Origin: Virgibacillus sp. NKC19-16
GTDB lineage: Bacteria > Bacillota > Bacilli > Bacillales > Amphibacillaceae
NCBI RefSeq assembly: GCF_021560035.1
Contig: NZ_CP074373.1
Coordinates: forward strand, 2,848,001 to 2,912,000
Direction of reading: 5' to 3'
Length of the DNA: 64,000 nucleotides
Within the stretch, counting starts at the first letter, position 1, and every line of letters begins with the position of its first letter. This document shows positions 3,230 through 52,932 of the stretch, in pieces. The position numbers were made by a program, and so were the translations under genes. Under the pieces are notes generated by a model, which was not told the DNA's origin, searched no databases, and was given only the letters and a program-made list of their open reading frames with translations.

Positions 3230-4534
3230 TCATGATGTCTTTTCTTCGGCAGCAGCTTTATTTTCTTCTTCGACAAGCTGTCTATCGTACTTCTTAAAGA
3301 ATGGGTAATAAATTGCTGCTGCGATTGCTACGTTTACAAGCTGTACGATTCCTGCCAGCCATGATCCCCCGGTTGCGATAAATCCACCAAAGAAAACCGG
3401 GACAGTAAATGGTGGCTGCACAATAACAGGCGGCAAAATACCGGTCGCAAATAAAATATAGTTAATGGTCACAATAACAACAGGCCCAAGTACAAATGGA
3501 ATGATTAAAAGCGGATTTAATACAATCGGCACACCAAAAATTAGCGGCTCATTGATATTAAATAATGATGGGATAATTACAGTTTTTCCGACTTGTTTCA
3601 GCTGCGTCGAGGCAGCGAAGAGCAGGAACACAGCTAGTCCCAATGTTGCACCAGATCCACCAAGATGGGTAAACATATGGAAGAATGGCTCTGTAACGAT
3701 ACCGCCCGCTTCTTCCCCCCGGCTTACCGCTTCGGCATTCTCCGCTAAATTGGTCATCCAGAACGGATAGACAACCGAAGATACAACATTCATTCCGTGA
3801 ATTCCGATTGCCCAAAGTACAAGCATGAGCAAAATCATACCAAGTGCTGCCCAATATGAGTTCGATGCAGCAACTAATGGACTAAATAGGTCCAATACTG
3901 CCTGTGGAATCGTTATGCCAAAATTAGCCCATACGATCCAAGACACGATCCATACAAGTGGCAGAATGATCATAAATGGAATGACGGCTCGAAAGGTTCG
4001 CATCACATACGGTGGTACTCCAGCAGGCATCTCAAATGTAACACCTTTTTTTATCAGAAAATTCATTGCTTCTGTTGTGAGAATCCCTAAAATAATAGCA
4101 ACAAACAGCCCCTGGCCTCCCAGATATTGCAAGATTTCCCCAAATGGCACCTGTTCAATATCTGTTACTGGAAATGCAGTCATAAAGAATGCAAGCATAG
4201 AAAGAATACCTGCCATCACTGCATCCATGTCTTTTCGTATCGCCAGACTATACCCGACACCGAACGAAACGGTCAAGGCCATGACCCCAAATGTCAGATT
4301 ATATGGGAACAAAAGCTGAGGCTGTATGGGTTCTACTGCATTTGCCCATGCGTCAATGATCCCCCAGTTCAGTGATGTCGGCGGGTTTGCAATAATCAGG
4401 AAGATGGCTCCCGTAATAATTACAGGTAACGCAAAAATGACGAATGCATCCCGGATTGCCTGCAGGTACGTATTTTGCGCAATCTTACCTAATGGTTCCA
4501 TTAAATGATCTTCAAGCCATTGTTCGAGTTTCAT
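3230..4534 (-). CDS. PTS cellobiose/diacetylchitobiose-type permease IIC
   Basis: 434 residues with about ten hydrophobic segments, typical for the CelB/ChbC group. The family signature region around GIHGMNVVSSVVYPFW and the later NINEPLIFGVPIVLNPLLI stretch (sugar-binding loop) are present. It forms the membrane channel for a beta-linked disaccharide or oligosaccharide. Gene order in the operon is small membrane protein, IIB, IIC, IIA. The exact substrate (cellobiose, chitobiose, lichenan fragments) cannot be told from the sequence. Confidence 0.9.
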   Translation of the reverse strand: MKLEQWLEDHLMEPLGKIAQNTYLQAIRDAFVIFALPVIITGAIFLIIANPPTSLNWGIIDAWANAVEPIQPQLLFPYNLTFGVMALTVSFGVGYSLAIRKDMDAVMAGILSMLAFFMTAFPVTDIEQVPFGEILQYLGGQGLFVAIILGILTTEAMNFLIKKGVTFEMPAGVPPYVMRTFRAVIPFMIILPLVWIVSWIVWANFGITIPQAVLDLFSPLVAASNSYWAALGMILLMLVLWAIGIHGMNVVSSVVYPFWMTNLAENAEAVSRGEEAGGIVTEPFFHMFTHLGGSGATLGLAVFLLFAASTQLKQVGKTVIIPSLFNINEPLIFGVPIVLNPLLIIPFVLGPVVIVTINYILFATGILPPVIVQPPFTVPVFFGGFIATGGSWLAGIVQLVNVAIAAAIYYPFFKKYDRQLVEEENKAAAEEKTS

Positions 4535-37373: not shown

Positions 37374-37470
37374 CGTCTCATCTTTCAAGCGAAATGCTTG
37401 CTGGAATTAGCACCGTGTTAACGGTTGCTGCGGGATCACAGGACCAGTTCCTCCCCCGACTCTTGATAAG
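37374..37470 (-). ncRNA. SAM-I riboswitch (S box)
   Basis: Minus strand begins CTTATCAAGAG, then GGGGGAGGAACTGG, GATCCCGCAGCAACC and GGTGCTAATTCC, and ends at AGATGAG closing P1. These are the landmark segments of the S box. High SAM should favour the terminator and switch off the monooxygenase-symporter operon. Confidence 0.92.
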
Positions 37471-37574
37471 GAAATATTCAATTTTTAAGATTTCTACATA
37501 TCATAACGGATACAGGAAAAACTGTCAAGTGGGAAATTTAGATAAACTTTCTTCAACAATATGGCCTTAAATTA

Positions 37575-44574: not shown

Positions 44575-45174
44575 GTGAATACATTGGAATTGTTAAGTAT
44601 CAATGGATTATGTCAAATCGTTGGTGTCACAGAAAAAACGGCAGCAGATTGGACCAATGATTTTAACAACTACATCCCGAAAACATCCCAGTGGGGGACA
44701 ACATATTATCCCCCTGAAGCAATTGAGACTTTAAAATTCATTAAAGCATGTAAAAATAAAAACTATCAGACGCCGCAAATTAAGAATATGCTAGCGAATA
44801 ATATTTCTCCTATCACAATGGAAAGGACGATAGAAGATGTGCAACAGTCATTAGAAGAAGGAAATTACAAAGAAAATATTTTGACAGTGATGCAAACAAT
44901 CGGAAAGACCGTTTCAAATGTCGCAGATCAGGAAAAATCGTTAAAAGCCTTACAAGAACAGAACGATGAGCAAAACAAACGAATCAAAAACATGGAAAAA
45001 CAGGCCAAAGAAATAAATGATTTAAAACAAGAAATCAAAAATTTAAAGCAAAAACATATACCAGCAAAAGAATATGAAGCAAAAAAGAAATCTTTCGCAA
45101 AGCTTTTTGAACAACAAAAGGAGGATCACATATGTTTCAGCCAGATAGTAAAAAAGCTAAACCAGGAGATGTAG
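44575..45174 (+). CDS. MerR/RacA-like DNA-binding protein with coiled coil
   Basis: About 199 residues from a GTG at 44575 (VNTLELLSINGLCQIVG), preceded by AAAGGAAAG; an ATG at 44545 is inside the repeat edge and lacks a site. N-terminal helix-turn-helix of MerR type (VGVTEKTAADWTND...YYPPEAIETLKFIK), then about 90 residues of coiled coil (QEQNDEQNKRIKNMEKQAKEI) and a basic end. The layout is that of RacA-like or plasmid DUF3967-type proteins. Its last 43 bases overlap the next gene. Confidence 0.65.
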   Translation: MNTLELLSINGLCQIVGVTEKTAADWTNDFNNYIPKTSQWGTTYYPPEAIETLKFIKACKNKNYQTPQIKNMLANNISPITMERTIEDVQQSLEEGNYKENILTVMQTIGKTVSNVADQEKSLKALQEQNDEQNKRIKNMEKQAKEINDLKQEIKNLKQKHIPAKEYEAKKKSFAKLFEQQKEDHICFSQIVKKLNQEM

Positions 45175-45350
45175 TAGAGTTTAAAAGAGAAGATTTGCTT
45201 TTAACTGGAAAGACATTACCATCAAAAAGTAAAAATAGTATTATCGTTGAAATATCATCTGAAAGTGATTTGGAAGCTGTTAATCGCGGTCATCCTAACA
45301 CGGTAGTTGCCCATGAAAAATATAGGGTTATTAATAAAGGAAAAAATTAA
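45132..45350 (+). CDS. DUF2187 (YkvS/YdbO-like) KOW-type protein
   Basis: 72 residues with a KOW-like SH3 barrel (AKPGDVVEFKREDLLLTGKTL ... RGHPNTVVAHEKYRVI). ATG at 45132 after AAAAGGAGG; it lies within the 3' end of the upstream gene in another frame. Followed by a strong terminator. Family of unknown function. Confidence 0.75.
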   Translation: MFQPDSKKAKPGDVVEFKREDLLLTGKTLPSKSKNSIIVEISSESDLEAVNRGHPNTVVAHEKYRVINKGKN

Positions 45351-45351
45351 T

Positions 45352-45385
45352 AAACCATGAGAGGATTAGCCTCTCATGGTTTTTG
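45352..45385 (+). terminator. Terminator before the CRISPR array
   Basis: AACCATGAGAGG pairs with CCTCTCATGGTT, followed by TTTTG. It isolates the array from transcription of the two upstream genes. Confidence 0.85.
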
Positions 45386-45458
45386 TTAAAAACGTTTTTT
45401 CATGCATCTATGTAGATTATTGCCTCCTTTTCTATTAAAGTCGAGTACAAAATGCATT

Positions 45459-45494
45459 ATCACAGTTCCATTAGCGCCATTTTCTTGTTATAGT
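45459..45494 (+). repeat. Highly decayed CRISPR repeat upstream of the array
   Basis: 36 bases that match the array repeat at 24 of 36 positions (ATCACAGTTCCATT ... GTTATAGT), separated from the first array repeat by 32 bases, about one spacer. Read by hand, so the count may be off by one or two. Confidence 0.55.
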
Positions 45495-45526
45495 TAAAAT
45501 ATAGCAGAAAGAGGATTTTACGTGTT

Positions 45527-46945
45527 GTCATAGCTCCATCAAAGTCATCGCTGTGTTATAATGTCTCAATCGCTTCAGGGTGATAATAGATGTCATAGCT
45601 CCATCAAAGCCATTGCTGTGTTATGATCCATTGACCCGTATTCAAGTTCATATGAAGGTCATAGCTCCATCAAAGCCATTGCTGTGTTATGATACAGACA
45701 GGGTTTTCTTTTGCTTAATTTGTGTCATAGCTCCATCAAAGCCATTGCTGTGTTATGATTAAAGTCCTTAACAAAATCGCGATGGTTGTGTCATAGCTCC
45801 ATCAAAGCCATTGCTGTGTTATGATTCGGTCGTCATAATCTCCTTCAAAGGAGAAGTCATAGCTCCATCAAAGCCATTGCTGTGTTATGATTGCGCAAAG
45901 TCGGGAACCATACCCTATTCGGTCATAGCTCCATCAAAGCCATTGCTGTGTTATGATTGTTCGGGTGGTAACAATTCGCCTGCTTCAGTCATAGCTCCAT
46001 CAAAGCCATTGCTGTGTTATGATAATGTATGATCAATGGATTTGAGTAGTTTGGTCATAGCTCCATCAAAGCCATTGCTGTGTTATGATCCACTGCATTT
46101 TCTTCATTTACATAAGCGCGTCATAGCTCCATCAAAGCCATTGCTGTGTTATGATTTAGATGTCTTTTTTCATCTTTCCATGCCTGTCATAGCTCCATCA
46201 AAGCCATTGCTGTGTTATGATGGTTAACGACATCATCTGATAAATATTCTTGTCATAGCTCCATCAAAGCCATTGCTGTGTTATGATTCCGATAGCTTTT
46301 CTATATCGATAACTTTTGTCATAGCTCCATCAAAGCCATTGCTGTGTTATGATTGAGGAATTGTATTTGAAGTTAGGGATTGTGTCATAGCTCCATCAAA
46401 GCCATTGCTGTGTTATGATAAGCACAAGGGAATTCGTCAAACGTTATGGGTCATAGCTCCATCAAAGCCATTGCTGTGTTATGATCATTTAGTAATAGAT
46501 AGTGGGTATCAAACAGTCATAGCTCCATCAAAGCCATTGCTGTGTTATGATCTTCGAAGAAGTTGAACCACTTTTCTTACTGTCATAGCTCCATCAAAGC
46601 CATTGCTGTGTTATGATTGAAAGGGCTGGTATACAAACTGATTTAAGTCATAGCTCCATCAAAGCCATTGCTGTGTTATGATTCGCCACCTCCGCCAGAA
46701 GGTTGTCCTTCCGTCATAGCTCCATCAAAGCCATTGCTGTGTTATGATTCCAGAGGAGGATACGGCAAAAAATTTCATGTCATAGCTCCATCAAAGCCAT
46801 TGCTGTGTTATGATCATCAATCTATGCTCATAATGTCCAAACCCGTCATAGCTCCATCAAAGCCATTGCTGTGTTATGATAGTCAGAAGTAGACAACCTT
46901 ATAGACACGGTCATAGCTCCATCAAAGCCATTGCTGTGTTATGAT
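45527..46945 (+). CRISPR. Type II-C CRISPR array, 22 repeats and 21 spacers
   Basis: 36-bp repeat beginning GTCATAGCTCCATCAAAG and ending CCATTGCTGTGTTATGAT, spacers of 29-30 bases, period 66. The first repeat (45527-45562) differs at three places; the other 21 look identical. The repeat is close to the one known from Geobacillus Cas9 systems, in the same orientation. Each repeat ends in TGTTATGAT, an extended -10 box, so every repeat can start a crRNA, as in Neisseria II-C systems. A terminator follows at 46959. The array runs head-on into cas2. Confidence 0.98.
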
Positions 46946-46958
46946 ACGTAGCCAATAG

Positions 46959-46995
46959 AGCCTGCTAAAACAATACTTTGCAGGCTTTATTGTAT
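46959..46995 (+). terminator. Terminator at the 3' end of the array
   Basis: AGCCTGC and GCAGGCT arms around a 14-base loop, followed by TTTATTGTATT. It supports + strand transcription of the array. The rest of 46996-47155 is AT-rich and is where an adaptation leader would lie. Confidence 0.7.
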
Positions 46996-47155
46996 TATTA
47001 TTCCGCTGAATAATTATTTTTCCCTGCAACACGTAATCCATATTTTAAAAAAATAACTCGCATTTGTCTCTTTTTAACTACAGTATGCCCTGTTTCTCTA
47101 TCTTTTATACCCCAAACCTTCTACTATCTCCATTTTTCCATACTTCTATACATAT

Positions 47156-47464
47156 CTAAAAAAGAGTCAGTTGATTTATCGTCACCTTTTCCTCATTTTT
47201 CGTTTTATCTCCTAGTAAAAAGCGCATCCGCTCATATTGTTTTTCCGTTATAGGCAACGCACGAATCGACCCTTTTGGCGGAAGGTTTCTCTTTACCTTT
47301 TCAAGCTGTCGTTCCATTGACTCGTGGCCATTACACAGCCTGCAATAAACAGAAAACTGCATCATGTCAAACCCTTCATCAAGTAAGTAATTTCTGAAAC
47401 GGGTATAGTCTCGCCGCTGCTTTTTTGTTTTTACCGGCAAATCAAAAAATAACATTATCCTCAT
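47156..47464 (-). CDS. cas2: CRISPR-associated endonuclease Cas2
   Basis: About 102 residues (MRIMLFFDLPVKTKKQRRDYTRFRNYL). The N-terminal beta strand with MLFFDLP and the length fit Cas2. It forms the Cas1-Cas2 integrase. ATG at 47464 lies seven bases after AGGAG; another in-frame ATG at 47482 overlaps the cas1 end and is also possible. Confidence 0.92.
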   Translation of the reverse strand: MRIMLFFDLPVKTKKQRRDYTRFRNYLLDEGFDMMQFSVYCRLCNGHESMERQLEKVKRNLPPKGSIRALPITEKQYERMRFLLGDKTKNEEKVTINQLTLF

Positions 47465-47474
47465 AAAACTGCTC

Positions 47475-48368
47475 CTATTCATATTGATGTACCTTTGCAG
47501 GGAGTAATTCAGGTAGCTTTTGATACGAATAATCTTGCTGACGGCAACTGGCAACAAAGCTTTTCACCATTTCATCGATAGCAGCCGTAATGGGATGTCT
47601 TTCACCGGAAATCAGAATATCTGTATTTGCTAAATTAACTAGCCCTGCTCGAACTTCTGCATCCCATTTCTCCACATCTTGACCAGCAACATGGCAATCA
47701 ACAATAGGACGAAGCACTTCCATAAAGTCATCGGCTAAATTAAAAGCATTTAATTGGTTATCATGATAAAGACCTAAGCAGGTGGTGAAACCGTAATTTG
47801 CGAGAGCCCGTGCTACTAATCCCCGCATAATGGCATAGCCATAATTGAGAAGGCGGTTCGTTGGGTCAGTTGAGCGACGTGTAAAACTTGAATCAAATAA
47901 ATGCTTAAAATATAACTTTGCAGCGACTGCCTCACGATTGGTCGCGTCTCCAGATTCTACCTCTTTTATTAATAGACTTAGTTCCTTACCGCCATCCTTC
48001 TCCATTACATCTAAGCACTTCGCTTGATTTAAAATTTTCTGCTGAATAATTTGTTTCCATACCCGCTTTTTAAAAGGTTTCGTAAGTGCCATTTGCATCT
48101 CTAATACTGTCAATTGTCTGGAATGCTGGTGGAAACCTGTCCAGATTCCATTCGGAAGTTTTCTAGAATCGCATGTAAACAGACTTACCTTATGCTCCGC
48201 ACATGCGCTTAGGACATTGGCAGTGATTGTTACCGCTTGCGCCTCAATAAGGATCGAGGCAATATCTTGCATGGGAATCGTAATGGTATCTTCTTGCTGT
48301 ACGACTAGTTGAGAGCGCTTGACTGATAGACGGGCATTGTTTGTGATCATGATATGACGCCAACTCAT
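47475..48368 (-). CDS. cas1: CRISPR-associated integrase Cas1 (type II)
   Basis: 297 residues. The type II pattern ILIEAQAVTITANVLSAC near the start, a helical domain with NREAVAAKLYFKHLF (metal-ligand Glu region) and GFTTCLGLYHDNQLNAFNLADDFMEVLRPIVD (His and Asp ligands) are present. It integrates new spacers with Cas2. AGAGGAG precedes the ATG. A terminator separates it from cas9, so cas1-cas2 may have its own promoter. Confidence 0.96.
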   Translation of the reverse strand: MSWRHIMITNNARLSVKRSQLVVQQEDTITIPMQDIASILIEAQAVTITANVLSACAEHKVSLFTCDSRKLPNGIWTGFHQHSRQLTVLEMQMALTKPFKKRVWKQIIQQKILNQAKCLDVMEKDGGKELSLLIKEVESGDATNREAVAAKLYFKHLFDSSFTRRSTDPTNRLLNYGYAIMRGLVARALANYGFTTCLGLYHDNQLNAFNLADDFMEVLRPIVDCHVAGQDVEKWDAEVRAGLVNLANTDILISGERHPITAAIDEMVKSFVASCRQQDYSYQKLPELLPAKVHQYE

Positions 48369-48428
48369 ATTCTGATACTCCTCTCATTCTATTATTCACT
48401 ATCTACCAGTCTCTCCATTTACTAGAAT

Positions 48429-48470
48429 AAAAATACAGCAAGTAGAAAGAAATCTACCTGCTGTATTTTT
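48429..48470 (-). terminator. Terminator between cas9 and cas1
   Basis: AAAAATACAGCA with TGCTGTATTTTT, extended by GTAGATTTCTTTCTAC-type inner pairing, right at the cas9 stop. Confidence 0.8.
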
Positions 48471-51400
48471 TACAACGTTTGTTTTATTTTTTTCTGTTTA
48501 AACGTTTGACGTGATTCCTTTTTAACGAGTGACAAATCACCTAAAATACCAACCTTATATTTTTCCAGTGTGTCAATTCCACCAAGCGTATAACGGCGCG
48601 CAGTCTGTTCATGTGGAACATTTGCCTCTTTAAAAATAACCCGGTTGCTGCCAATATCAATGGTACTAAAGTAGAGGAATCTATCTTCATCCCCACGTCT
48701 CAGTCGAACTAAGTCATATGGATACAGACTAAATTGAAACGCAAAAGTTTCATCAAGCTCGTTCCATTGTTCGTATCCTTTTCCTGCTGTGACTACTCTT
48801 TTCGGCAACTCCGGCAAACTCGCATCTATAACATAGACTGGCACTGCATGATACTTCTCTTCTTTTAAAAACAGGTCAATTCGGACAAGATCGCCATTTT
48901 GAGCAACCCCACCATTCACTTTCCGGACATGCGATCGTTTATCAACTTCGACTTTTACACGGCGGATCGGGTTGCCCTTTCCCTTCTTGCTCGGTTTATA
49001 AAGCTCCTCTTCAAATGCCTTTTTAGAATTACCACCTTGGGCAAGGTACCGTTGTTTAATTGCTTCATAAGTGGCAGGATCAGCTTCCTTATTTACCATC
49101 GCAAAATCGCCATATTTGTCAAACTTTATCTCTTGTAATGGAACCCGTTTGACGATAATGGTTTTTCCTGTACGTTCATCAACGCCGCCTTTCATCATGA
49201 TGGTCTCTTTATGAGCCGAACCTGTAACCGAACGCCTCGCCATTCGCGAAACCATCATATAAGAAGGGAGAGGGAGCTTGGCATCAAGTGCATGGTGAAT
49301 CTCCTCAGGATTTGGCAATGCCGAAAGATGAGTTAAAAGCTCATCGCGAAAACCTTCCCATGGGCGCGGGAAAAATGGCTCTTTTATTTTTGTATTGTTT
49401 TCTTTTCCTTTGTGATAATTGGTTAAACGTTGCACTATTCCATCATCCGTACATGCTACTACTATAGCATCCAGTGCATGGTGAAGATGGGTTTCCTCAC
49501 GGTGCTTCTCAAGTCCCCATCGACTACGCATATGAGAGGTTATTCGCCCATTCACTGTATTAACCCACTTTTTTCGGCCAGAATATTTTGGCTGAAGTCG
49601 CTGTTCCACAAAGTTTTTAAAAAATCGGCTGATATATCGTGTGTCATTCAAATGACGTTCTTTCACCAATTCTTCTTCACGTGCAGAGAATTCCTTCTTT
49701 AAAAGGTACTGCTTCTTCGGTTTTGAGAACTTTGCATTACTATTGACGTAATCCTCAAAGTCCTCCAGCGATTCCCTCTATTTCTCAAATAATCAAAGGG
49801 AATCCGATTTCCTTTTTTTCGGTTTTCGTCGCTATAGACAAGCACTTTATTATGGTAGTTATCCATAAAGCTTTGGCTATATGGCAAAATGTGATCCACA
49901 TCCAATTTCGGTGCACTGTTTCTTTCTCGCTTCAATTCCTTAAAAAATTCTTCTGCAGGAATTTTCTTTTGTGAATAGGCACACTTACGCTCTTGTTCTT
50001 CCCAAAGCTTATACCTCACAATATCATGACCTTTGGGATTTAAAATTCCGAATTCCGTAAGCATTTTAATCGCACCGGTATTTCGCTCATAATTGGCTCG
50101 CTGCGATTTAACTAGTTTGTTACGCTCTTCATGCGTCTTTGAAAGCTCACGTGCCAGTTCAATATGAACGGAAACAGGTGACCCGTATCGTTTTATAATT
50201 GCATTAACAACTTTACGCGATTGAGTAAGCGCCCGTTTTACAACCGGATTTGCAATATCATCAGGAATCGGCGGTAGCAACTTCTCGCGCTTGGCCTTTT
50301 GCAATCCTGTCGTATCATAACCTAATTCATCCGCTGCTTTCTTAAAAGTTAGTCCTTTTTCCATATGCGGCAACAAGTTTTGTATTGCTTTCGATGATAG
50401 ATGACCGAACTTAGAATAAGAAAGCAGGAGAAGCGAATCAATCAGTTCTTCAGCAAATACCCGTTTTGCCAGATTTTGAGAACTCTTTAAATAATTACGG
50501 ATATCTTTATCCGTTTTATAGACAGTCAGCGCAAAGCCTATCGCATCGTAATCATCCTTATTGTAAGTCTCTCCCGTATCGGCAGTGTGTATATCGGTTA
50601 CCCGCTTAATTTGATAGAACGCATTCAAGTTAACAAAAGGAAGTTTTTCGTTTTGATTAAGCTTCGCCTCAGGATCGTAGGTTAGCTCATTAAATTTCAG
50701 GGTCTCATCAAGCTTTATCCACTTCCGGATATCTGAGTACTTAACTACTGGTGCACTTTTACGCTTGGCCAAATCCTCCCGATTAAAAAGTTTTTCTAAA
50801 ATAGTAGCGCGCTGTTCTGTTGTCAGTGGCTCCACATTTGTACCAACTCTAATCCGGTTGATTTTATCCAGGGCCATGTAGTATTGAAATGTATAAGTTG
50901 CTTTAGGAATACGGCGCTCTTCCGGCTCAAGGGAACAAGAGCCTACTTTCTTCAAAATTGCGCTCCCTGAAGCAAAAGGAAGCTGATGGTTCCAGATTTT
51001 CAAATAGGCTTCCTGCAGTTCTTCAGTAGCATGCGAAGAGCGGAATCCACGCTGACTTTCGAAAAGCGTCACAATTTCCTGTTCCAGGTCATAGCGGCTC
51101 ACATTAAACACATACTCCCCACTTGAATTGCGGCGTTTATCATATTTCATAAACTCCGGGTCATTCATCCACATTTCCCCGACCGTACGATATTTTGTTA
51201 ATCGTTCCTTGTTGTCTTTAACACTCGAAAGGACAGCCCCAGTCTCTTTGTCGCTTTGTTCGGATTTTCGGTTCGACTTGAAGCCGCGACGCTGGGCAAG
51301 ATGAATGAGTAGGCGCCCCCATTCCTGCCGACTTAATAACCGATCCAACCCTTCCAGGCGGATGTCCCATATATCAACAGAACCTTCTTGAAGGGGGTAA

Positions 51401-51699
51401 AGCTGCTTCAACTCCTGTTCATTTAATACGTCAAAATTTACAAGAAGCTGACGAATTTCCTTTTTCCTTTCACTACGGCGACGCAAACGCCGGCGAGAGG
51501 AACGCGCTAATCGACGAGGTTCTGCTAACGAAGCACCCGTTTTCGGAATTTCCGCTTTGTCAAACATTCGCACCCCTGCATCAACAATGGTAACTGTTTC
51601 AAATTTTTTATTGTTCTCATCCAATGCAAGCTCAATGACGCTCCACCCAACTGAATTTGTGCCAATATCAAGTCCTATACGATAATCTAAATCTTTCAT
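48470..51699 (-). pseudogene. cas9: Type II-C Cas9, split by a one-base frameshift
   Basis: From ATG 51699 (AGAGGAGGAGC before) the frame runs 666 residues: RuvC-I RIGLDIGTNSVGWSVIE, an Arg-rich bridge helix (RRLARSSRRRLRRR), recognition lobe, RuvC-II PVSVHIELARELSK and HNH KLDVDHILPYSQ with the His near residue 600. After FDYLRNRG it leaves frame and stops at 49699. The other frame continues SLEDFEDYVN, ELVKERHLNDTRYISRFF, RuvC-III HHALDAIVVAC and the C-terminal PAM domain to 48470. One extra G in the GGG run at 49774-49776 gives RGESLEDFEDYV and about 1080 residues, the length of Geobacillus Cas9. All catalytic motifs are intact. Confidence 0.93.
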
Positions 51700-51749
51700 C
51701 CTGCTCCTCCTCTATTATCATTTTTAATAAGCTTTGCCATTTTTTCTAT

Positions 51750-51908
51750 AAAAAAGACCTCAGCTACGTACGAATAGCTAAGGTCAGTCTTGTTGTATGT
51801 AGTGGGGAGACACCCATCATAGACGGGCAGGCGATCCCCAACGCCACGAGCTACTTACTCAAAGTAGCCTTATCATAGAAACATCAAAGCCATTGCTGTA
51901 CTATGATA
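51750..51908 (-). ncRNA. tracrRNA of the II-C system
   Basis: The anti-repeat at 51872-51907 reads ATCATAGTACAGCAATGGCT on the minus strand, complementary to most of the array repeat. Downstream follow GGCTACTT/AAGTAGC, GGCGTTGGGGATCGCC and CCCGTCTATGATGGG hairpins and a terminator (GACCTTAGCTATT...GTAGCTGAGGTC plus T run, stem at 51756-51785). Start is expected near 51908. It is parallel to and just upstream of cas9. Confidence 0.92.
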
Positions 51909-51913
51909 AATCT

Positions 51914-51942
51914 ATCATAACCTTTGACCTAGGTATTGTCAA
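51914..51942 (-). promoter_or_regulatory. tracrRNA promoter
   Basis: TTGACA (51937-51942), 17-base spacer, TATGAT (51914-51919) on the minus strand. It places the tracrRNA start at the first base of the anti-repeat. Confidence 0.88.
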
Positions 51943-52113
51943 GTATATGCAGTTTTGGATTAAGATGGAACTATGATTTAAGTAAATTTTTGGTAATTTG
52001 TTGGCTAGGAGAGAGTTACAACTAGGGTCTTTACTAAGAATCCTTTACAAATTGGCTCAAAAATGTATGTATTTTCATTTAAGAGCAATTAATTTATACG
52101 AATACACCTTAAT

Positions 52114-52215
52114 TTATTTAAGAACCTTACCACTATTATGGATTTCAATTACAATTAAATTTAGATTTATTGTTATTGTGGATATCCTTTTTAATACGTT
52201 TCTAAGATTGTGCAT
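52114..52215 (-). CDS. Possible 33-aa peptide upstream of tracrRNA
   Basis: ATG at 52215 after AGAGGTG; the peptide begins MHNLRNVLKRISTITINL and has an Ile/Leu-rich middle. A promoter TTGACA-N17-TACTAT at 52301-52329 points to it. Short and of unknown family, so it may be only part of an RNA gene. Confidence 0.3.
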   Translation of the reverse strand: MHNLRNVLKRISTITINLNLIVIEIHNSGKVLK

Positions 52216-52300
52216 AATTTCACCTCTATTCAATTGGTAAATAGATATACCAAGGATACACTAATTATAAATTTTCGCAACTTTCCCCTAACTATCTTGA

Positions 52301-52329
52301 ATAGTAATCTATCAAAATTTAATTGTCAA
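52301..52329 (-). promoter_or_regulatory. Strong promoter between orphan repeat and tracrRNA
   Basis: TTGACA at 52324-52329, 17-base spacer, TACTAT at 52301-52306 on the minus strand. Nothing annotated explains it except the 33-aa frame. Confidence 0.55.
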
Positions 52330-52426
52330 GTTTTCCTTTTAAAATAATTTTTATTGTTATTAATAATAGAATATTGTATTATAAACTTTAGTATACATTT
52401 ATCCATACCTTATTTTGGTAAATAGA

Positions 52427-52461
52427 GTCTTAGCCCCATCAAAAGCCATTGCTTATATGAT
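52427..52461 (+). repeat. Orphan CRISPR repeat on the far side of cas9
   Basis: GTCTTAGCCCCATCAAAAGC with CATTGCTTATATGAT resembles the array repeat (GTCATAGCTCCATCAAAG ...) with a few changes, one inserted A and a 2-base loss. It is in the same orientation and keeps a TATGAT box. No second repeat is found next to it. Confidence 0.75.
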
Positions 52462-52494
52462 TGTTTCAGTAAGCTGAGACAGACAAAATAATTT

Positions 52495-52536
52495 AAAACT
52501 GGTTCCGATCATTGGTTTTTGATCGGAACCAGTTTT
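52495..52536. terminator. Perfect 16-bp hairpin beyond the orphan repeat
   Basis: AAAACTGGTTCCGATC and GATCGGAACCAGTTTT around a ten-base loop. Preceded at about 52462-52482 by a small hairpin TGTTTCAG/CTGAGACA. The 990-base gap 51943-52932 holds this, the orphan repeat, the 33-aa frame and a GGAAGC palindrome, and otherwise nothing I can name. Confidence 0.7.
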
Positions 52537-52781
52537 CATTGGATTATTTTCATTATCTATTGGATGATGTGTATTCATAGCAGTGTACTTTCTCAAATTT
52601 ACCGTCATGAATACTTCCTATTCATTAACCTTTAGAAGTATAAGGACAGATCCCCCTTCTACTTGCTGCTTGCTATCTAATAGACCATTAACATGTTTTG
52701 GAACACTCACTCCCCTTTTATATATTACTGTCTTTTATAAATGCCCTGCAAACATTTCTCCAACATAATCCGCTTCTAAAA

Positions 52782-52813
52782 AAGGAAGCAGAAGAACCGC
52801 CTCCGTGCTTCCC
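52782..52813. repeat. Intergenic palindrome, GGAAGC family copy
   Basis: AAGGAAGCAGAAGAACCGCC followed by TCCGTGCTTCC, and a second CCCCTGCTTCC right after. Confidence 0.5.
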
Positions 52814-52932
52814 TGTCCCCTGCTTCCAGTCTATAAGTCTACCAGACAAGCGCCTTTTTTAACGAATCCTCCTACAAACACCGCCATTCTCTCTTTAAAT
52901 CTTCATAGCATGAGAGAGAAGGAGGTGATAGA

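Follow-up and report, generated by a model that had tools for sequence, protein, structure and literature searches.

Type II-C is the subtype on which programs for orienting CRISPR arrays differ most (PMC12638026); its arrays have been described as running opposite to the cas operon (PMC3936727). In Riemerella anatipestifer II-C, insertion between cas2 and the array has been published; transcription in Flavobacterium columnare runs toward the variable end (PMC8092290), and in Campylobacter jejuni a new spacer appears at the distal end (PMC4283603). A survey of 357 unique II-C systems found 60% of first repeats mutated against 5% of the others, and terminators on the upstream side in 12% of systems, which was no enrichment (PMC12080349).

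The locus described here is built like the II-C systems of Neisseria and Campylobacter, with the genes cas9-cas1-cas2, an array opposite to the cas operon and an extended -10 box at the repeat end, and the polarity that we infer for it is also theirs, new spacers being acquired at the 3' end or next to cas2. It differs from them in that its host belongs to the Bacillota and its cas9 is broken. The Geobacillus II-C systems (L051 and L060) share the plan of repeat and leader hairpin, with the dyad at 27.0 nt, although the leader is 98 nt long in L051 and 210 nt in the window.

The locus and its array

The window, that is, the whole stretch of DNA analysed, comprises 64,000 nt (G000:C1:2848001-2912000) of the single contig that makes up the 3.83 Mb source genome of Virgibacillus sp. 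NKC19-16. As read from its sequence, the locus is a type II-C CRISPR-Cas system with cas9, cas1, cas2 and a minus-strand tracrRNA:

45352-45388, no strand assigned: terminator hairpin of a small upstream gene, the outer boundary of the locus (45340-45395 folds at -21.6 kcal/mol, z -6.9)
45389-52825, no strand assigned: whole CRISPR-Cas locus, replaced by 45 bp in the same-genus genome G153
47156-47464, minus strand: cas2, TIGR01573 (scanned as 47156-47470; the ATG start at 47464 was picked by eye)
47475-48368, minus strand: cas1 of type II (cas1_NMENI), TIGR03639, 298.5 bits
48470-49669, minus strand: downstream piece of cas9, past the frameshift, a 399 aa ORF, TIGR01865
49699-51699, minus strand: upstream piece of cas9, a 666 aa ORF, TIGR01865
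51745-51907, minus strand: predicted tracrRNA, with anti-repeat 51907-51872, tail GTGGCGTTGGGGATCGCC and a hairpin with T-run near 51785-51745 (ends set by eye)
51914-51942, minus strand: promoter-like TTGACA-17-TATGAT ahead of the tracrRNA (by eye)

No csn2 or cas4 was found, the same-strand ORFs of at least 80 aa between tracrRNA and array being cas9 (in two pieces), cas1 and cas2; matching to cas family profiles covered these four ORF stretches. The repeats read on the plus strand and the cas genes on the minus strand, giving the opposite orientation of array and operon. An intact Cas9 is absent, as the 1076 aa relative from L043 aligns partly in one frame and partly in another, the two overlapping at 49750-49774, with a break near residue 645 of the relative, in what we take to be the HNH region; intact homologues exist. 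The frameshift may be real or may be a base-calling error of the assembly. Since cas9 is frameshifted, the system may be idle in the source genome; an intact Cas9 is required for activity, not for classification as II-C. The sole Rfam match at gathering score in the window lies away from the locus, a SAM riboswitch (RF00162) at 37375-37472 on the minus strand.

Genome G153 offers a clean empty site (locus L086), where 45 bp stand in place of 45389-52825; homology to the window extends to 45388 in this genome and to 45386 in G154, and neither of these same-genus genomes has a Cas1 match at E 1e-30. Elsewhere in G153 (L079, ~3584-3625, minus strand) there is a relic repeat followed by ACGTAGTCAAAAAGCCT, which closely resembles the beginning of the window leader, and we regard this relic as the scar of a lost array. 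Together, the empty site and the relic repeat suggest that related systems have been gained or lost within the genus.

The array spans 45459 to 46945 on the plus strand:

45459-45494, plus strand: fossil repeat, the oldest, 24/36 identical
45527-45562, plus strand: oldest regularly spaced repeat, with three changes at positions 19, 23 and 34; its -10 TATGAT has become TATAAT
45563-45591, plus strand: spacer 1, the oldest, resembling the HTH gene directly upstream
45592-46945, plus strand: 21 identical repeats and 20 spacers, the youngest repeat being 46910-46945

An earlier note on this DNA had described 20 identical central repeats together with an identical last one, a copy with three changes at 45527 and a still older copy at 45459 that keeps about 24 of its 36 bases. 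Our counts agree in each respect: the exact 36-mer GTCATAGCTCCATCAAAGCCATTGCTGTGTTATGAT occurs 21 times, starting from 45592 to 46910, with spacers of 29-30 nt. The copy at 45459 was put to a formal alignment test, in which its score of 24/36 was reached by one of 12,793,000 positions in 200 shuffled windows. It starts 68 bp ahead of the 45527 repeat, where the usual step is 65-66, and the chance of such a score over 11 offsets round the expected place is ~9e-7; other matches in the real window reach at most 23/36, the anti-repeat at 51872 excepted. In the source genome, no further repeat copy within 3 mismatches occurs outside the array.

Isolated single repeats (30-33/36), away from any array that we could see, are present at five places: L078 994-1029 (in the window's own genome, 906393 onward), L080 3072-3107, L081 1894-1929, L082 1969-2004 and L085 1488-1523. 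Four of the five are in genomes without a match to the window Cas1, and those of L080 and L085 sit 33 and 23 nt downstream of a TATACTTATAAT box. They could be collapsed arrays or crRNA-like single guides.

Spacer 1 resembles homologues of the HTH gene, at 25/29 in the window's own copy (44701-44729), which directly adjoins the old end of the array, 27/29 in G153, 26/29 in G154 and 23/29 in each of G043 and G060, while spacer 9 matches G052 at 27/30 and G021 at 24/30. The likeness of spacer 1 to the HTH gene possibly reflects an old self-target or a mobile homologue. A C at +5 is found in G153, G154, G052 and the own copy, and is absent from G043, G060 and G021; the PAM was dropped as a test of direction, the matches being too few and too mixed. 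Searches for phage and plasmid targets of the spacers returned weak matches only, at E 5 or worse, and exact seeds in viral contigs gave 0 matches for a 17-mer of spacer 20 and 11 for a 16-mer of spacer 6, which we take to be about the number expected by chance.

Direction of transcription and growth

The strand from which crRNAs would be made follows from the predicted tracrRNA. Its anti-repeat matches the repeat at 30/36 and lies upstream of cas9, and the tail GTGGCGTTGGGGATCGCC follows the anti-repeat in 23/26 relatives, with one-base variants in L048, L051, L060, L061 and L065; the tail was not found in L064, L067 and L069, whose contigs end before it. Since a minus-strand tracrRNA can pair only with plus-strand repeats, crRNAs are predicted to be made rightward, toward cas2 and away from the decayed end, as the earlier note had proposed. 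Directly upstream of the tracrRNA promoter, at ~51976-51957 on the minus strand, stands ATCATAGTTCCATC, which is like the 5' third of the repeat.

An alignment of Cas1 yielded 31 named loci, one genome per species, of which 26 in addition to the window have a readable array. The array starts 394-668 bp past the cas1 stop in all 27 loci. Among the 20 arrays that are complete, the oldest repeat is altered in 14 and intact in 6, a proportion comparable to the 60% of first repeats reported for the extra repeat of Feussner et al. 2025 (PMC12080349). Four of the 14 are copies with 10-12 changes (L044, L045, L051 and the window fossil), and the count becomes 13/20 once such copies no longer count as repeats. 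The repeat at the cas2 end is altered in 0/26 loci and internal repeats in 19/490, L045, with its two repeat types, being excluded from both counts. As the array walk began at an exact copy of the repeat, the flank beyond was checked separately: no altered repeat follows the youngest one, the best 36-mer at repeat spacing on the cas2 side scoring 11-16/36 in 27/27 loci.

The flanks differ in the same sense. When compared with relatives, the 60 nt on the cas2 side are conserved at z 5.1 to 8.5 in 6/10 loci and at 1.4 to 3.4 in the other 4/10, and the 60 nt on the far side score z -1.9 to 0.9 in 9/9, which places the leader on the cas2 side:

46946-47155, plus strand: leader on the predicted integration side, 210 nt from the last repeat to the cas2 stop

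The growing end of the array is thus very probably 46945/46946. Decay in relatives, conservation of the cas2-side leader and the strand of the tracrRNA agree on this, bearing out the earlier suggestion of a growing 3' end near cas2. The opposition of decay and transcription, which the earlier note treated as an oddity, is the norm in published II-C systems, and the polarity itself is ordinary. Growth at the 45527 end instead, with the decayed repeats proximal to the leader, would be in keeping with most CRISPR types, whose leader lies at the transcription-5' end (PMC12638026). We consider it highly improbable: repeats next to a leader are the ones that get copied and remain intact, whereas the repeats at this end would be the worst of the array. 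The flank on the far side, moreover, is unconserved in all nine comparisons, and homology to G153 reaches 45388, just 70 bp short of the fossil, on that side.

A search with the window array against 155 family genomes gave, by inspection, no shared spacer; apart from spacers 1 and 9, no window spacer matches better than 22/30 in the loci analysed outside the own genome, many of which have partial arrays. The array of L045 (8574-10969) consists of blocks of two repeat types, 21 older repeats and 16 nearest cas2, plus 2 altered older ones. This two-block pattern fits growth at the cas2 end; we do not take it as proof, because neither block equals the outgroup repeat type.

We hold with high confidence to an array that is read rightward and grows on the cas2 side, the oldest end being 45459/45527 and the youngest repeat 46910-46945; its repeats would contain promoters, and a leader hairpin would end its transcripts. 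Cas1-Cas2 would insert new spacers at 46945/46946, against the leader 46946-47155, as the polarity, the conservation of the leader and published work on II-C suggest.

Promoters in the repeats and decay of the oldest copies

All intact repeats end in the extended -10 TGTTATGAT with no -35, in agreement with the earlier observation that each repeat has its own extended -10 box, and a standard scan of 45300-47160 found no plus-strand sigma-70 site. The form TGnTAnnnT closes the repeat in 24/27 loci, L044, L045 and L056 having TAn instead of TGn before the -10.

How the oldest repeats have decayed supports a promoter in each repeat better than the motif alone. In the ten altered oldest repeats with at most 6 changes, 19/35 changes lie in positions 1-12, 13 in positions 13-24 and 3 in positions 25-36, and the extended -10 itself (positions 28-36) carries 1/35 where 8.75 would be expected (p 0.0005, without correction for kinship). 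The four more decayed copies contain 42 changes, 4 of them at positions 28-36 (2 in L044, 0 in L045, 0 in L051 and 2 in the window fossil), which makes 5/77 over all 14 altered oldest repeats, against ~19 expected, again without correction for kinship. Three copies, those of L057, the L044 fossil and the 45527 repeat of the window, have exchanged TATGAT for the consensus TATAAT. The extra repeat of Feussner et al. 2025 (PMC12080349) is alike in that its mutations lie mainly in the 5' part of the repeat and in that some loci have an upstream terminator; the terminators there are on the transcription-upstream side, whereas the hairpin described below is on the leader side.

As the sequences suggest, every spacer would be transcribed from the extended -10 at the 3' end of the preceding repeat. 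In an oldest repeat that is no longer copied, the part that pairs with the tracrRNA would then be free to decay, which would account for the observed pattern, and the promoter part would be kept because spacer 1 still needs a promoter. Age need not be the only cause of the damage. Selection against useless extra crRNAs (ecrRNA), an idea proposed in PMC12080349, would likewise concentrate changes in the tracrRNA-pairing part, where 19/35 fall in positions 1-12; the same source reports that the oldest repeats of II-A decay even more, so age alone suffices, and we consider such selection possible though rather unlikely. Both explanations are compatible with growth at the 3' end.

A hairpin in the leader

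Directly beyond the youngest repeat, the leader of the window contains a further feature:

46953-46992, plus strand: terminator-like leader hairpin, with arms 46953-46965 and 46980-46992 and its dyad 27.5 nt from the repeat

The earlier note had placed a hairpin at 46959, and it is real, with 13 pairs, -19.9 kcal/mol and z -6.0. Its U-run is broken (TTTATTGTATT) and its loop is 14 nt long, for which reasons it may be a weak terminator; a terminator scan admitting loops of 3-8 only omits it.

A helix of ten pairs can be aligned in 26 Bacillota leaders (set A2), where 95.4% of cells are paired and pairing falls to 60-69% when the arms are slid by one column. Seven pairs are changed on both sides, with 51 double-change cells against 20.3 after shuffling (0/500 shuffles as high), the rows being sequences and not independent events. 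The 26 non-Watson-Crick cells of this set include 14 G-U and 1 A-C, and a looser count over 59 folding leaders, partly biased by the folding program, gives a weaker 26 G-U against 12 A-C (p 0.017); the excess of G-U over A-C points to selection on RNA. Measured from the repeat, the centre of the dyad falls at 27.25 nt (sd 0.65, range 25.5-29.5), and the 27th leader, L069, has no such hairpin. As a yardstick, 30 groEL loci were scored out of the 59 genomes with a groEL match, and 22/30 of their 3' flanks have a terminator of comparable score, at distances from the stop codon with an sd of 28.1 nt.

A covariance model of the hairpin matched five sites that its training set lacks, all of them at or beside a repeat:

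L062: E 4.6e-8, with one repeat adjoining
L094: E 2.6e-8
L099: E 8.7e-7
L047, 13553-13614: E 2e-6, at the junction of a second array
L052, 6383-6444: E 7e-4, at the transcription-3' junction of an opposite-strand array

Eight further matches are copies of training rows. The best score in the 30 groEL loci was E 1.6, no match at E 2 or better was obtained in 15 more distant Cas1 loci, and none at E 1 in the whole genomes of L068-L070. With matches at second arrays and none at groEL or distant Cas1 loci, the hairpin goes with arrays and not with cas2.

Cas1 searches of Bacillota as a whole, and of an order and phylum centred on Neisseriales, contributed a further 37 leaders, for a total of 64. 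The set excludes loci with no array in the stretch examined or with the array masked (L062, L063, L068, L070, L071, L135, L136, L139, L144, L147, L165, L167, L170, L172, L176 and L177), repeats of the same place (L159, L162, L166 and L179), the opposite-facing arrays L137, L138, L141 and L142, which served as controls, and L092-L102, of which eight are identical to training rows, only L094 and L099 are new, and L101 has the coordinates of the masked L063. The first 52 nt fold with z below -2 in 59/64 leaders (median -5.3), L069, L140, L155, L158 and L168 having no hairpin; in controls, z below -2 was reached by 9/64 leaders at nt 71-122, by 2/20 far flanks and by 3/16 cas-side flanks of other type II-like arrays, most of which have oppositely facing repeats. 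After clustering at 80% identity across Bacillota and Pseudomonadota, the hairpin is present in 53/58 clusters, with its dyad at 22-30 nt in 47/58, and AANCC occurs at +10..+22 in 34/58 against 1.9 expected. Before clustering, the dyads of 17 leaders peak near 23.7 and those of 35 leaders near 27.4, the distances for L171 and L180 being approximate as their repeats are incompletely defined. At least 5 T stand in the 8 bases after a G-C pair of the stem in 44/52 leaders of the two peaks and fewer in 8/52, namely 2-3 in L171, L178 and L182, which we would guess from repeat type to be alphaproteobacterial, and 4 in five others.

A palindrome (AAACCCATTG/CAATGGGTTT) is given, with no role, for the Riemerella II-C leader in PMC5006608; it is like the hairpin described here in its AAnCC core, the kind of dyad and its location between cas2 and the array, whereas that account concerns one species and, in its accessible part, assigns no role and compares no distance. 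The accessible part of a search of CRISPR operons for structured RNAs (PMC9067536) mentions II-C in connection with one repeat and one tracrRNA only, and the accessible parts of PMC12282179 and PMC13016550 do not mention a II-C leader hairpin. We found no general description of one in open-access journal papers, and the conserved hairpin may be a little-noticed shared part of II-C systems.

In our reading the integration leader contains a terminator, formed by this hairpin, termination being the more likely shared role in the Bacillota on the present comparison. As each repeat ends in a predicted promoter, the youngest would fire into the leader, toward cas2; its promoter would always be without a spacer and would face the cas operon from the operon's 3' side. 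Hairpin and U-run, within ~50 nt, would end both this RNA and read-through from the array.

That the hairpin simply terminates leftward transcription of the cas operon is improbable. The cas genes do converge on it, and an A-run ahead of its 5' arm in the window's clade could work both ways. Its distance to the repeat nevertheless stays steady while the leader from repeat to cas2 varies from 66 to 345 nt (L060 excluded, its cas2 frame being misread), second arrays away from cas2 have it too (L047 and L052), and the T following the stem are better conserved than the A preceding it, with medians of 6 of 8 bases against 4 in Bacillota and 6 against 3 in Pseudomonadota.

Termination accounts for the T-run on the crRNA side, but not for the fixed position of the dyad or for dyads poor in T; with 8/52 centred hairpins having fewer than 5/8 T, it may not be the shared role. 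Judging by the near-fixed distance and the AANCC core, the hairpin may in addition serve Cas1-Cas2 or DNA bending. Going further, the dyad could be mainly a DNA site for spacer integration, through docking of Cas1-Cas2, bending or a cruciform, and the T-run secondary. The near-fixed distance, the frequency of AANCC and the few T in L171, L178 and L182 would all fit, as would the cruciform of leader or repeat palindromes that PMC5382924 suggests recruits Cas1-Cas2 in II-A. The preference for G-U over A-C favours RNA, however, and a T-rich stretch follows the stem in most leaders of the two peaks, so that we hold a mainly DNA role to be plausible but unlikely. A bolder reading, which we hold to be possible but short of probable, combines the two: II-C leaders across phyla would share a dyad with an AAnCC core, ~24 or 27.5 bp from the junction, with a double role. 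It would stop crRNA-strand transcription coming from the orphan promoter of the youngest repeat and would place Cas1-Cas2 for insertion.

If this is true, what serves II-C systems as integration leader would be a terminator and not a promoter. With a leader hairpin that can be recognised, the growing end could be told from the sequence by itself, and the age order of II-C spacers would become readable. Why a subtype with repeat-borne promoters would keep a stop signal at the site of insertion, and what Cas1-Cas2 recognise there, also become testable questions.
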